Assembly (NCBI GenBank): GCA_018820315.1
Contig: JAHJOQ010000086.1
Location: 1 to 53,769, forward strand
DNA: 53,769 bases
Direction of reading: 5' to 3'
Source: Candidatus Zixiibacteriota bacterium
Lineage (GTDB): Bacteria; Zixibacteria; MSB-5A5; JAABVY01; JAHJOQ01
Shown here: piece by piece, positions 32,843-38,343 of the stretch
Layout: each line of letters begins with the position of its first letter
Position numbering within the stretch: position 1 is the stretch's first letter
Translations under genes and position numbers: made by a program
Notes under the pieces: generated by a model
What the model was told of the DNA's origin: nothing
What the model saw: the letters and a program-made list of their open reading frames with translations, nothing else
The model's database searches: none

Positions 32843-33820
32843 TCAAGCAATCTGCCTGTGGGAAGATTCGATGTAGCGATCGAAGAAGTTCACGATATCG
32901 TCATAGCATTCGACCGAAACCATCAGAGATCTCACGCGCGATATGTTCACCCACCTGCGCGTGTACCACGTAAGCTGTTTGCGCATGCGAAGGCTGGCCG
33001 TCCGTTCGCCGAGATCTTCGATCAATAATCGTGCGAAACCGAGACACGTATCGATCTTAGTCTGCAAATCGGGCTCTCCCGGATCAGGTAGTCCACGCAG
33101 TACAGCATCTACTCTGCCAAACATCCACGGCGCACCCATGGCGGCCCGCGCAATCATGACAAGGTCGCATCCGGTCTGCTCTATCATGTTCACGGCATCC
33201 TGGGGCTCGCATATATCACCGCTGCCGACGACCGGAATCGACACCTGCTGCTTCAGCTCAGCTATTTTGGACCAGTCCGATTTGCCGCTGAAGCCGGATG
33301 CTTTGGTTCGCGGGTGAAGAGTCAGCATCGCAACACCGCAATCCTCCGCGAGCTTTCCAACTTCGATGAAGTTCGTACTCTCGCGATCCCATCCGGACCG
33401 GAATTTCATCGACAAAGGAATGTCGACCGCCTTGACCGCTGCCGAGAGCAACGCCTCAGTCAGCGTGAGATCCTTCAGGAGAGCCGCACCGCCGCATTTG
33501 CTAACGATTTTTCTCGCCGGACAACCGAAATTGAGATCGATCATGTCGACCCCTCGGTCTGCCACGAGTTTGCAGGCATCGGCGAGCGCAGAGGGAGTGC
33601 TTCCGAAGAGCTGGATCGAAACCGGGCGTTCCGATTCACGAAACCGTAACATATTGAGCGTTTTATGGTTGCCTCGCACCAACCCCTCGGCCGAAATCAT
33701 TTCGGACACAACGAGAGAAGCTCCATGTTCTCTGGCGGTCATTCTGTAGGCCGAACCGGAGATATTTGCGAGTGGTGCCGAAACGACCTTTCCGCTTAGA
33801 CTTAAGTTTCCGATTATCAT
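32843..33820 (-). CDS. dusB: tRNA-dihydrouridine synthase (DusB-like)
   Basis: Dus enzymes reduce uridines in tRNA D-loops using FMN and NADPH. The 325-residue protein shows SAPLANISGSAYRMTAREHG, the FMN-site DLNFGCPARKIVSKCGGAAL with catalytic Cys, FRSGWDRE, LTLHPRTKASGFSGKSDW, and GSGDICEPQDAVNMIEQTG with MIARAAMGAPWMF. The start at 33820 (MIIGNLSLSGKV) matches the family; 24 further upstream codons do not. No Shine-Dalgarno is present and a -10 box sits six bases before the ATG. It leads the larB-larC-etfA unit. Confidence 0.93.
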   Translation of the reverse strand: MIIGNLSLSGKVVSAPLANISGSAYRMTAREHGASLVVSEMISAEGLVRGNHKTLNMLRFRESERPVSIQLFGSTPSALADACKLVADRGVDMIDLNFGCPARKIVSKCGGAALLKDLTLTEALLSAAVKAVDIPLSMKFRSGWDRESTNFIEVGKLAEDCGVAMLTLHPRTKASGFSGKSDWSKIAELKQQVSIPVVGSGDICEPQDAVNMIEQTGCDLVMIARAAMGAPWMFGRVDAVLRGLPDPGEPDLQTKIDTCLGFARLLIEDLGERTASLRMRKQLTWYTRRWVNISRVRSLMVSVECYDDIVNFFDRYIESSHRQIA

Positions 33821-33826
33821 TCCGAC

Positions 33827-33855
33827 AATATAAGGGTGTAAGGCGAGCCGGGCAA
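33827..33855 (-). promoter_or_regulatory. Promoter of dusB-larB-larC, positioned for a leaderless transcript
   Basis: On the minus strand TTGCCC (33855-33850) and TATATT (33832-33827) have a 17-base spacer. Only six bases separate the -10 box from the ATG of dusB, the same geometry as at ligA. Confidence 0.5.
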
Positions 33856-33931
33856 GGGGAAAAGGTCCGCAACTTACCGTACAACTTTGCATTAGACTAC
33901 ATACAACTTGCCTCCAGAAAGGAGCGCTATC

Positions 33932-34621
33932 ATGCCCGAGATAGTAGTAAAGTTTGACAACCGGGTGGTTGAGCGCGTGGTAACGGAGAAGGAGTTCCTC
34001 TCGATAGGACGTACATCCGACAATGACATCGTGCTCGACAATCGAGGTGTGTCACGTAAGCATGCACGCATCGATTTCTCTGGAAAGGAGGCGCTGCTGA
34101 TTGACAACGAGAGCCTCAACGGCACATTTGTCAACAGCAAGAAGGTCGCCGAGGAGAGGCTGCGGGACAACGATGTGATTACCATTGGGAAGTTTGATCT
34201 GGAATACCATTGCGGTACAGAGACAGATGAGAAAATGTCTGACCACGATGGCACGATGATTCTTAATACGAAGCGTCAACGCGATATGGTCAAGAAGGAC
34301 CAACAGGACCAGCAGATAGTGAGAAAGGCTGGGTGCTCTGTCTTGATGGGTCTTGAAAACTCCAGCGATGCGGAAGTTCAACTGGACAGAGATGTTCTGA
34401 CCCTTGGAAAATCCAAGTACGTCAGCATTAAAGTCCGAGGATGGTTTACGTCCGGCATCCAGGCAAAGATAGTCCGCGAGGGACAGGAGTTCTTCATCAT
34501 CAACACAGGTCGTGCCGGCAGAACGAAGCTTAATGGCGAAATGATTCAGCGACACGGGCTGAGAAACGGAGATATATTACAGGTAGGGAACACAACATTC
34601 CGATTCATAGAGGCAACCTGA
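33932..34621 (+). CDS. Protein with one canonical and one degenerate FHA domain
   Basis: FHA domains bind phosphothreonine. The 229-residue protein starts at 33932 after AAAGGAG. The first FHA (about 1-95) has the full motif set: LSIGRTSDNDIVL, GVSRKHARI and NESLNGTFVN. The second (about 135-229) keeps the fold pattern (LTLGKSKYVSIKV, TKLNGEMIQ, LRNGDILQVG) but lacks the Ser-Arg-x-His core, so it may not bind phosphopeptides. The linker has a DGTMIL stretch that could be a kinase target. A phosphoesterase and a Ser/Thr kinase follow at 2 and 3 bases, so it is the likely reader of that kinase. Confidence 0.9.
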   Translation: MPEIVVKFDNRVVERVVTEKEFLSIGRTSDNDIVLDNRGVSRKHARIDFSGKEALLIDNESLNGTFVNSKKVAEERLRDNDVITIGKFDLEYHCGTETDEKMSDHDGTMILNTKRQRDMVKKDQQDQQIVRKAGCSVLMGLENSSDAEVQLDRDVLTLGKSKYVSIKVRGWFTSGIQAKIVREGQEFFIINTGRAGRTKLNGEMIQRHGLRNGDILQVGNTTFRFIEAT

Positions 34622-34623
34622 GC

Positions 34624-35352
34624 ATGAAAATAGGGTTTTTCTCCGACATCCATTCTAATCTTGAAGCATTGGAAGCCTGCTTTGCCGACTTTAGAAAAGA
34701 AAAACTCCGCAAGCTTTTCTTTTTAGGCGATATTATTGGCTACGGTCCCGATCCGAACAAGTGCATCGCACTTGTACATAAGAAAGCAGATGCCATACTC
34801 CTGGGCAATCATGATGCCGCCGCAGTGGGACTTCTCAGCACTGACTTTTTCAATACTTATGCACAGGCATCGATGGACTACACGACTCAGGTTTTGACTC
34901 CAGAGAATCTCAATCGCCTCAAGATGAGTCCACTTGAGGCGACCTATGACATTTTCAAGATGGTGCATGCCTGTCCTGAGGAGCCGGCGAGCTGGGGATA
35001 CATACTTGATCTGGAGGACGCTGAAGAGAATTTCAAATTCTTCGAGCAACAGGTCTGTGTGATCGGCCACAGTCACCGGCCCATAATTATCAAGAAATTC
35101 AGGGCAAATCGCTGCGAAGCGGTGCCTCACGACTTTGCTCGAATCGACGAAGATTACCGTTATCTGGTAAACATCGGAAGTGTTGGGCAGCCGCGCGACA
35201 ACGACCCGCGGTCCAGTTATATGATATTTGACACTGAGACAAGAATCGTCTCTATTAAACGCGTCGAGTATGATTACCAAAAGACTCAGATGAAAATGAA
35301 AAAGGCTAAGTTGCCGCAATTCCTGGTAGACAGAATCGCAGTAGGGAGATAG
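34624..35352 (+). CDS. Calcineurin-like metallophosphoesterase
   Basis: The 242-residue cytosolic protein has the complete two-metal site of the superfamily: FSDIHSN (Asp-x-His), FLGDIIGYGPDP, LLGNHDAA, VHACPEE and VIGHSHRP. It resembles the YfcE/MJ0936-type single-domain phosphodiesterases. It sits two bases after the FHA gene and three bases before the kinase gene, so a role as protein phosphatase or nucleotide phosphodiesterase in the same circuit is plausible. Substrate is not readable from sequence. Confidence 0.9.
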   Translation: MKIGFFSDIHSNLEALEACFADFRKEKLRKLFFLGDIIGYGPDPNKCIALVHKKADAILLGNHDAAAVGLLSTDFFNTYAQASMDYTTQVLTPENLNRLKMSPLEATYDIFKMVHACPEEPASWGYILDLEDAEENFKFFEQQVCVIGHSHRPIIIKKFRANRCEAVPHDFARIDEDYRYLVNIGSVGQPRDNDPRSSYMIFDTETRIVSIKRVEYDYQKTQMKMKKAKLPQFLVDRIAVGR

Positions 35353-35355
35353 GTA

Positions 35356-37800
35356 ATGAGGATTCCTCTGATTGGAAGGACCGGTAGCGGCAAAGAACGT
35401 TCTGCTGGCAGTGGATCATTCGTGAGCAAGCATCCGGGCATGGTGCTGTGCCTTCTACTGACGCTGCTCATCGCTCTCTTGCATCTGAATCACGCGAGCC
35501 TCTTCGAATCTTATGAGAGCAGATTCATCGATTTCATGTTCAACATCAGGGGAACCATCGAGCCATCCGGTCAAGTCGTAATGCTTGAAATCGATGACAA
35601 ATCAATTGACCATCTCGGCGCATGGCCGTGGAACCACCAGACTCTGGCCCAGTTGATTGAAGCACTGCATTACTACAGCCCATCGAGCGTTGTACTGCAC
35701 TTCCCGATCGCGGACAGGATGAATGACTTTGTATCAGGGAATTCGCAACTTCTGGCCGAAAATATCCTTCAATCTGGCAATGTCATTCTCCCCTTTTATC
35801 CGATTCTGTCTGATCGGACTCCGCGAACCAGCACAGCTGCCGACTGGCTCAGAAGTTCCGCATTGACATCAGTGATCCCATTCCAGGCGGAAGAAACTCC
35901 TCGCGCTTCCAGATTGGAATTCCCGAGCGATCTTTTCGCGCAATCGGGGAAGATGATGGGTGCGGACTTCACGCGTTTCGAAGACAACAACAGAGTGAGA
36001 GTGCAGCCACTGATCCTCATGTACGAGAAGTTGTTTTACCCATCGATCGAACTTGCTGCGGCCGCTTCTGCGCAAAACATACAACTCGACGAAATCGAAT
36101 TCGACCAGGATAAGATGGAAGTCCAGATTGGAATGCAGTCGGTTCCGGTTGATCGACGGGGATATTACATGATAAACTACTACGGCCCGGCGTCAAGCAT
36201 CTCGTCATTTTCCGTCAAAGACTTCTGGGACGGTGAAGTTGATATCTCAAAATTGCAGGATAAGATCGTCGTAATCGCCGTCACCGCGTCCGGCCTCTCC
36301 GATGTGCTCTACACATCGTTTAGTGATCGCTTCACACCGGTGGAGAAGTCGGCGACCGTAATCGACAATATTCTGAGCGGCAGATTCATTACTCCTCTAA
36401 GCCTTCCATCGACGGCGAGGTTGATCGGAATTCTTGTGATGGGTGTGCTCTGTTCGGTACTCATGCCACGGATGCAACTTACTCACAGATATATATTGCT
36501 TTCGCTCCTCGCGATCGGTCTGATTTCATTCAGTATAATCATGTTTGTTTCGTATGACACGATCGTGCGCATAGTGCACCCCGCGCTGGAATTGTTCCTG
36601 TTTGCGTTGGTCGCACCTATGATGACGGAACGCAGGAAGGTTGACCAGACGGCCGAGTCCACGTCCAGAACCAAGACGGTACCCAAACCTGCAATATCCT
36701 CGCCTGCGAAAGGAGTGCCGGAGATACCGCGGAAAGAGAGGCATGCTCAGAAACCTGCACCGCCTCCGATATCTCAGCCGGTTGACACCCAGGACTATCA
36801 GGAAACTTCGCTGCCAGCGGATTTCGAGCAGGCTCAGATAGAGACCAGGATGCTCGATGAACTCGCGAAGGCGACCGGAGAAACCGACAAATCCGACAGT
36901 AGAGCGAATGGAGATTCGAGCCGGCCGAAAGACCCAAAATCTGCTTCAGATAAGATTCCGAGTTCCTTTGGCAGATACACAGTTACAGGCAAACTTGGTA
37001 AAGGTGCGATGGGGACGGTCTACAAAGGGATGGACCCGGCTATCGACAGACCGGTTGCCCTCAAGACTATTCTGCTGGACAGGATCGCAGACGAATCAGA
37101 AATCGATGAACTCAGAGAACGCCTGACTCGTGAGGCGAAGGCTGCCGGAAGTCTCTCTCATCCGAATATCGTGACAATCTATGACGTGGGACAGGATGGC
37201 GACACTCAGTATATCGCGATGGAATATCTCGAAGGACACACACTCGAGCAAATCATAGATCGACAGTTGGAATTCAACTTCAGACTGGCCGCGAAAATTG
37301 TGTTCCAGATTTGCTCGGCGCTCTCCTATGCTCACCGACACGGGATTGTACATCGCGACATCAAGCCTGCGAACATAATGGTGATGGAAAACTTCCATGT
37401 GAAAGTAATGGATTTTGGAATTGCGCGCTTCGAGTCGTCCAGTCTGACGCAGACGGGAATCGCTATGGGGACTCCGAACTACATCTCTCCTGAGCAGTTG
37501 AAAGGTGAGGAAGTCACGCTCTCGTCAGATATTTTCTCGCTCGGAGTCGTATTCTATGAGATGCTCGCGGGCAGGAAGCCTTTTGTCGGCGACAACATCA
37601 GCAATCTAATATTGAAAATCATAAATGACAATCCCCCGCTCCCTTCGACCTACAGCGACAAGATACCGGCGATGCTCGACATCATTGTGAAGAAGGCGCT
37701 GGAAAAGAATCCGTATGACAGATACCAGTCTGCCGAGGAAATGATGAGAACGCTCGAAGACTTCGCTATGGGTTTCTCAGCATCCCGCTCTAGACTCTGA
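35356..37800 (+). CDS. CHASE2-domain receptor Ser/Thr protein kinase
   Basis: The 814-residue transmembrane kinase has an N-terminal anchor (about 30-48), an extracytoplasmic CHASE2 sensor (about 50-345, with MLEIDDKSIDHLGAWPWNH and VVIAVTASGLSDV), three membrane helices (about 352-430), a Pro-rich linker (about 440-530) and a Hanks-type kinase domain (about 537-800). Kinase motifs are complete: GKLGKGAMGTVYKG, catalytic Lys in VALKT (about 569), HRDIKPANIMV (about 665), DFGIARFESS (about 686) and GTPNYISPEQLKG. CHASE2 senses an unknown external cue. It is last in an operon with the FHA protein and phosphoesterase. Confidence 0.93.
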   Translation: MRIPLIGRTGSGKERSAGSGSFVSKHPGMVLCLLLTLLIALLHLNHASLFESYESRFIDFMFNIRGTIEPSGQVVMLEIDDKSIDHLGAWPWNHQTLAQLIEALHYYSPSSVVLHFPIADRMNDFVSGNSQLLAENILQSGNVILPFYPILSDRTPRTSTAADWLRSSALTSVIPFQAEETPRASRLEFPSDLFAQSGKMMGADFTRFEDNNRVRVQPLILMYEKLFYPSIELAAAASAQNIQLDEIEFDQDKMEVQIGMQSVPVDRRGYYMINYYGPASSISSFSVKDFWDGEVDISKLQDKIVVIAVTASGLSDVLYTSFSDRFTPVEKSATVIDNILSGRFITPLSLPSTARLIGILVMGVLCSVLMPRMQLTHRYILLSLLAIGLISFSIIMFVSYDTIVRIVHPALELFLFALVAPMMTERRKVDQTAESTSRTKTVPKPAISSPAKGVPEIPRKERHAQKPAPPPISQPVDTQDYQETSLPADFEQAQIETRMLDELAKATGETDKSDSRANGDSSRPKDPKSASDKIPSSFGRYTVTGKLGKGAMGTVYKGMDPAIDRPVALKTILLDRIADESEIDELRERLTREAKAAGSLSHPNIVTIYDVGQDGDTQYIAMEYLEGHTLEQIIDRQLEFNFRLAAKIVFQICSALSYAHRHGIVHRDIKPANIMVMENFHVKVMDFGIARFESSSLTQTGIAMGTPNYISPEQLKGEEVTLSSDIFSLGVVFYEMLAGRKPFVGDNISNLILKIINDNPPLPSTYSDKIPAMLDIIVKKALEKNPYDRYQSAEEMMRTLEDFAMGFSASRSRL

Positions 37801-37899: not shown

Positions 37900-38343
37900 C
37901 TAATCTTCATCGTCAGTATCGATGATCTCTTCGGCAAGCGAGAGCGCGACCCCGGAAAGCATAACCTCCACACCGAGCTTCGTGAAATCCGAAGATATCA
38001 GATCTCGGGCAATATTGGAGTATAGCGAACAAGCAGCCTCATTCTCGACAACAAGACCCGAAATGAAGCCTCGGCTCTCCGAGACAAAGGTAACCTCACC
38101 CAGCTCTTCTGAGACAACAAACCCGGAGCAATTGTGAAGCTGCAGATGCGCGCCTCCGCTGTAAACAACTATCAGCGAGCCCTTATTCTTGCCGAGAGTA
38201 ATGTCGGGGTAGACTTCGAGAACAAGCATCCGGTTGACCTGCTCAGCCACGACCTTGAAACGATAGTGGTCTGTCTGCCAATCGGCCGAGTCTGCATCTA
38301 TCACGCGGGCGATCTCATCGATTTCATGTTTTTCGAACTTCAT
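37900..38343 (-). CDS. Unrecognised 147-residue acidic protein
   Basis: No family is recognised. The protein is soluble, beta-rich in the middle (LVLEVYPDITLGKNKGSLIVV, GGAHLQLHNCSGFVV) and ends in an acidic tail (EEIIDTDDED). The ATG overlaps the tatA stop by four bases, making it the last gene of the large housekeeping operon. No terminator is obvious in the 99 bases to the kinase operon, which converges on it. Translational coupling supports a real gene. Confidence 0.7.
   Translation of the reverse strand: MKFEKHEIDEIARVIDADSADWQTDHYRFKVVAEQVNRMLVLEVYPDITLGKNKGSLIVVYSGGAHLQLHNCSGFVVSEELGEVTFVSESRGFISGLVVENEAACSLYSNIARDLISSDFTKLGVEVMLSGVALSLAEEIIDTDDED

Follow-up and report, generated by a model that had tools for sequence, protein, structure and literature searches.

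Among the closest described counterparts of the system reported here is GarA/OdhI with PknB/PknG of Actinobacteria, which combines an FHA protein, a conserved threonine motif outside the FHA domain, and a Hanks kinase. We analyzed a 53,769-nucleotide stretch of DNA (referred to here as the window) from a Candidatus Zixiibacteriota bacterium (assembly GCA_018820315.1, contig JAHJOQ010000086.1; genome G000, 3.78 Mb in 173 contigs) and found that these elements are encoded, together with a metallophosphoesterase (MPE), in a single three-gene unit. Our data make it about an even prospect that this unit is a phylum-wide, membrane-linked, GarA-like phosphothreonine switch with a CHASE2 kinase, an FHA reader, and an MPE that resets it. 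The unit differs from GarA/OdhI in several respects. The threonine motif of GarA/OdhI is N-terminal to the FHA domain, whereas the zixibacterial motif follows the first of two FHA domains (FHA1), in the linker to a second (FHA2) that GarA/OdhI do not have and that is degenerate. Furthermore, the sensor of the zixibacterial kinase is CHASE2 rather than the PASTA of the GarA/OdhI kinase system, and GarA is not known to share an operon with a kinase and a phosphatase.

A kinase and its candidate antagonist are also encoded within one operon in PrkC-PrpC, Stk1-Stp1, and PpkA-PppA, and the usual phosphatase partner in Ser/Thr kinase operons is a PPM/PP2C enzyme (PMC6213207). In contrast, the candidate phosphatase of the zixibacterial unit is a calcineurin-fold MPE and the PP2C of the genome is encoded elsewhere. 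Cyanobacterial Ser/Thr kinases with an N-terminal CHASE2 domain share the CHASE2-kinase order, but an FHA-MPE operon is not reported for them in the excerpted text of PMC2176072. Precedent for MPE-type protein phosphatases comes from Myxococcus Pph2, a PPP-like protein (COG0639) with altered motifs that dephosphorylates phosphopeptides, according to the excerpted text of PMC2887360; Pph2, compared here with the MPE by description only, is not placed with a kinase/FHA pair in that excerpt, unlike the zixibacterial MPE. 3rqz has full-length homology to the MPE and shares its metal motifs and fold, as SapH/Spr1479 appears to as well; the records consulted assign no function to 3rqz and give no FHA or kinase linkage for either protein. 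Our literature search for a kinase-FHA-MPE combination found no described system of such composition.

The three genes form a tight unit conserved across Zixibacteria

Three intact open reading frames (ORFs) follow one another on the forward strand of the window: the FHA gene (33932-34621, from its ATG to its stop), the MPE gene (34624-35352), and the CHASE2 kinase gene (35356-37800). Only 2 bp separate the first two genes, and 3 bp the last two. An earlier note on this DNA, made without database searches, had proposed this composition and a tight operon, and Pfam bears out all three identities: an FHA protein of 229 aa (FHA, 3.1e-29, two stretches), an MPE of 242 aa (Metallophos_2, 4.1e-16; Metallophos, 1e-12), and a transmembrane Ser/Thr kinase of 814 aa (CHASE2, 5.1e-39; Pkinase, 3e-58).

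Among 132 Zixibacteria genomes, we found matches to the MPE, the FHA protein, and CHASE2 in 121, 123, and 127 genomes, respectively, and the full triad in the same order in 109. In every genome that holds both (114 of 114), the FHA gene is next to the MPE gene and their order is the same. Adjacency and triad counts were derived from match coordinates, with weak MPE paralogue matches excluded. Since triad order and FHA-MPE adjacency are kept to this extent, the observation is not due to chance, and the objection foreseen in the earlier note, that the triad might be missing from relatives, fails. Several genomes short of the triad look like contig ends (e.g., G001 and G131), and one genome (G069) contains the entire triad in two copies. 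FHA orthologues are 65% identical within the family; for most other families the figure is 46-60%. In nearly all loci the FHA and MPE genes are spaced by -4 to +15 bp, with larger negative values representing alternative upstream starts, which makes translational coupling likely. MPE-kinase spacing is mostly -4 to +25 bp, with inserts of 200-970 bp in some families.

The triad is flanked on both sides by genes on the reverse strand. The divergent dus (tRNA dihydrouridine synthase, 32843-33892) lies head-to-head with the FHA gene and adjoins the triad in approximately 40 fetched loci. On the other side, a gene at 37900-38343 encodes a small protein of 147 aa that has no Pfam matches and whose homologues recur beside the triad (19 ORFs across the loci retrieved, window included); this gene may be a conserved operon neighbour.

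The FHA protein contains a candidate phosphosite between two FHA domains

The product of the first gene had been described in the earlier note as a phosphothreonine-binding FHA protein, which agrees with our data except that the second FHA domain had been overlooked. FHA1 (34001-34189, 75.3 bits) is a canonical phosphothreonine-binding domain (GR..SRxH..NG) in which the binding residues of GarA/OdhI are present, and its G26, R27, S41, R42, H44, N63, and G64 are identical in 45 of 45 readable homologues. The closest solved structures to FHA1 by sequence are those of GarA/OdhI, while the score against the NCBIfam OdhI equivalog is 72.7 bits, below the cut-off of 200. FHA2 (34400-34588, 33.6 bits) is degenerate, with GK for GR and SGIQAK for SRxHA; across homologues the arginine is mostly lysine and Q-A-K replaces the H-A signature in nearly all.

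The linker between the two domains contains the motif D106-G-T-M-I-L-N-T113 (34247-34270), with T108 as the candidate phosphosite. The consensus among 46 FHA homologues is [DE]-G-T-M-[VIL]-L-x-T, with G107, T108, M109, and T113 invariant in all 46, and the mean identity of the motif is 0.86 compared to 0.38 for the preceding linker residues 90-105. The phosphosite motif of GarA/OdhI is ETTS (PMC12321487). No N-terminal ETTS phosphomotif was found in the zixibacterial protein, which begins at the FHA fold and contains the analogous motif C-terminal to FHA1. The ETTS site of GarA/OdhI is extended as ETTSVF, which the spacing of the linker motif, [DE]xTx[VI][LF], resembles, and a hydrophobic +3 residue is a frequent feature of FHA ligands. 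DGTMIL, suggested in the earlier note, is thus the best candidate phosphosite given its invariant T108, its GarA-like pattern, and the variable linker that flanks it, and from sequence T108 is probably phosphorylated. It is unlikely that DGTM(V/I)L.T is instead a structural or docking element (e.g., one that packs on FHA1 or binds an effector), with the FHA protein reading only other phosphoproteins. The invariance of G107, M109, and T113 alongside T108 exceeds what a minimal kinase motif needs and would be explained by such an element, but the motif matches the ETTS spacing with its hydrophobic +3 residue and is embedded in a highly variable linker.

The CHASE2 kinase is predicted to be active

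The third gene encodes a transmembrane kinase with a CHASE2 sensor, as the earlier note had read it. Hydropathy predicts an N-terminal transmembrane segment (aa 29-47, 35440-35496) and three transmembrane-like segments (aa 352-420, 36409-36615) after the extracytoplasmic CHASE2 sensor domain (35467-36447, 7.8e-40), and these are followed by the protein kinase domain (36976-37746, 2.7e-59). The closest solved structure is PknB (1.8e-57). The marks of a Hanks-type Ser/Thr kinase (VAxK lysine, HRD, DFG, and an activation-loop threonine) are all present, and the lysine, HRD, and DFG are kept in all readable homologues but one, suggesting an active enzyme. The PASTA-type PknB model (NF033483) scores 341 bits against a cut-off of 450, and the extracytoplasmic part of the kinase is CHASE2, not PASTA repeats. 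The MTQTG activation loop is also conserved, with T698 present in 43 of 43 readable homologues and position 700 being T or S in 41. The title of a cited reference states that PknB recruits GarA via its activation loop; by analogy, T698-Q-T700 (37447-37455) is likely the docking site for FHA1.

We considered whether the kinase belongs to a defence system, namely the PD-T4-6/MAD6 anti-phage kinases, and rejected this assignment; the PADLOC matches span only the generic kinase domain of the protein. The MPE and CHASE2 kinase genes of family f5 have between them a gene for a secreted protein that combines a FecR domain with a LysM-like N terminus (L062:7002-7958, L064:6770-7729, L056:5275-6216 on the reverse strand, and L059:6746-7690), which hints at an envelope protein as a possible partner of the CHASE2 sensor. 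In G049, the CHASE2 ORF (L047:7155-9701) passes through an N stretch into a repeat protein, which is probably an assembly artefact.

The metallophosphoesterase pairs with kinases in two phyla

The MPE is a member of the Metallophos_2 calcineurin-like superfamily by its Pfam match and its full metal-ligand set, and D8, H10, D36, N62, H63, H115, H149, and H151 are invariant in 48 of 48 homologues. Since the FHA1 binding residues, the MPE metal ligands, and the kinase catalytic residues are all conserved, the sequences argue for three working proteins. The best full-length homologue of the MPE is 3rqz from Sphaerobacter (1.2e-49; 38% identity in a fold search).

MPE homologues also occur in Bacillota, Pseudomonadota, Bacteroidota, cyanobacteria, and haloarchaea, where relatives outside Zixibacteria were drawn from plasmid records only. 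On three alphaproteobacterial replicons (Rhodobacter, Pseudoroseomonas, and Shinella; L110:4001-6211, L113:3501-5655, and L114:3501-5645), an MPE homologue lies 0-3 bp upstream of a gene for a Ser/Thr kinase-universal stress protein (USP) fusion, identified by Pfam in two replicons and by annotation in the third. These MPEs form their own clade in the MPE tree, which indicates that MPE-kinase pairing also occurs outside Zixibacteria; the tree gives no support for a common origin of this pairing and the zixibacterial one. Most relatives examined outside the phylum are not beside kinases, including those of Alkaliphilus, Adhaeribacter (ars genes), and Trichormus (a gene for a GTP-binding protein), and the A. 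ramasamyi relative adjoins a 5'-nucleotidase-type gene. Within Zixibacteria, G055 contains a second, divergent MPE that is directly followed by three kinase-domain genes (L085:6396-12311).

A rival explanation casts the MPE as a passenger, that of a conserved housekeeping gene whose position reflects vertical inheritance of the dus-FHA-MPE-kinase neighbourhood. Vertical inheritance fits the MPE tree, and dus is likewise conserved beside the unit. We regard this explanation as improbable, given the near-zero or overlapping spacing to FHA in all families, the duplication of the whole unit in G069, and the recurrence of MPE-kinase pairing in another phylum.

The metallophosphoesterase is a frequent but separable partner

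Several observations weigh against a switch that is reset by the MPE, the first being the relatives and motifs of the enzyme itself. Its nearest characterised fold relative and next-best match after 3rqz, SapH/Spr1479 (approximately 25% identity; TM-score 0.68, using a model of mean pLDDT 67), is an asymmetric Ap4A hydrolase and phosphodiesterase according to the PDB. Two of the three motifs that define PPP phosphatases (PMC535813) are not found in the MPE, which reads SDIHSN for GDXHG and GDIIGYG for GDXXDRG (GD.vGYG is kept in 48 homologues). The third, GNH(E/D), is present as GNHD, with D in 42 and E in 6 of 48 homologues. By definition, therefore, the MPE is not a PPP phosphatase. In addition, the AlphaFold model of the FHA protein, made from a two-row alignment, had a pLDDT of 34 and was not used.

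The pattern of gain and loss also weighs against an MPE-reset switch. None of the seven genomes of family f3 has an MPE, although all retain FHA and kinase; in six of them the FHA gene immediately precedes that of the CHASE2 kinase, while the matches of the seventh (G041) are on separate contigs, and the GTM linker motif is retained in four of four MPE-less f3 genomes examined. The MPE also outlasts its partners, being intact in G014 between remnants of the FHA C terminus and of CHASE2 (L037:3700-5100) and present without FHA in G009 and G018. Our data thus indicate that the FHA-kinase pair does not require the MPE and that the MPE is not confined to this pair; the MPE may act on other substrates too. 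Four genomes (G067, G119, G124, and G129) are without a clear FHA and MPE copy and most of these are also without CHASE2, as expected if the unit is missing en bloc or if these metagenome-assembled genomes are incomplete. Since f3 keeps both FHA and kinase and G014 shows decay of both, the two travel together, and we consider it very likely that they act as one functional unit. FHA and the CHASE2 kinase are the core of the system, with the MPE as a very frequent but separable partner.

Separability in both directions is also what would be seen if the kinase-FHA switch is real and the MPE acts instead on nucleotides (Ap4A, ATP/ADP, or some other phosphodiester), modulating a nucleotide signal or cleaning up under the same physiological conditions. 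This alternative, which we view as possible though doubtful, further draws on the similarity in sequence and fold to SapH/Spr1479, the closest characterised relative, on the incomplete PPP signature, and on the 5'-nucleotidase-type neighbour in A. ramasamyi. However, an FHA adjacency without exception and an independent alphaproteobacterial kinase pairing exceed the needs of a general nucleotidase, and identity to SapH is low.

Other phosphatases add to the points against the MPE. A PP2C match is present in 88 of the 132 genomes, including that of the window, where the PP2C locus (L132) is on another contig and neighbours neither a kinase nor an FHA gene, and SpoIIE-type domains are present in 58 of 58 genomes tested. 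These data weaken a simple replacement of PP2C by the MPE; the reading of the earlier note, in which the calcineurin-fold enzyme stands in for PP2C, is a possibility. The only other FHA gene in the window genome encodes an FHA-GAF-SpoIIE protein and overlaps the gene of a TPR-containing Ser/Thr kinase (L088:67-4754, reverse strand, contig C155), which makes it the second FHA/kinase pair of this genome and a more orthodox kinase/PPM pair. The window genome contains about ten kinase genes, one PP2C, and six SpoIIE-type domains. The earlier note had called the cassette self-contained, which captures the conserved, tight triad but neither these additional enzymes, nor f3 without an MPE, nor the MPE that stands alone in G009, G018, and G014. 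In favor of the MPE as a phosphatase, 27 of the 58 genomes lack a PP2C match and 22 of those 27 keep the triad, and MPE-kinase pairs occur on the three alphaproteobacterial replicons. Taken together, we place the MPE as phosphatase of this kinase-FHA pathway slightly short of an even chance.

A model of the phosphothreonine switch

The order and conservation of the genes, the integrity of their catalytic and binding residues, and the pattern of gain and loss are what we observe, and from these we infer a model of a GarA-like switch. The CHASE2 kinase would sense an extracytoplasmic signal and autophosphorylate its T-x-T activation loop, and the activation-loop phosphothreonine would recruit the canonical FHA1. 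The docked kinase would then phosphorylate T108 in the DGTMIL linker. Phosphorylated T108 would fill FHA1, either within its own molecule or in a neighbouring one, and alter the binding of the two-FHA protein, presumably to a downstream target, as in GarA/OdhI, while the degenerate FHA2 might provide a phospho-independent interaction surface. The MPE, probably co-translated between FHA and the kinase, would strip phosphate from the FHA protein and/or the kinase through a phosphoprotein-phosphatase activity, resetting the switch, and in some lineages it might serve other kinases too. The most specific form of this model, a kinase-FHA switch with a dedicated non-PPP, non-PPM calcineurin-fold eraser that is ancestral to the phylum and was independently paired with kinases in Alphaproteobacteria, is one that we put forward tentatively.

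The novelty of the kinase-FHA-MPE unit hinges on the substrate of the MPE, and the phylum-wide occurrence of the unit, together with its invariant candidate phosphosite, means that the phosphatase question can be addressed in vitro with three small proteins. In many bacteria, Hanks kinases outnumber the matching PPM phosphatases. If the widespread MPE family includes phosphothreonine phosphatases, part of this gap would be filled, and if the MPE is a dedicated eraser, it would represent a class of bacterial Ser/Thr phosphatases that has not been recognised before.

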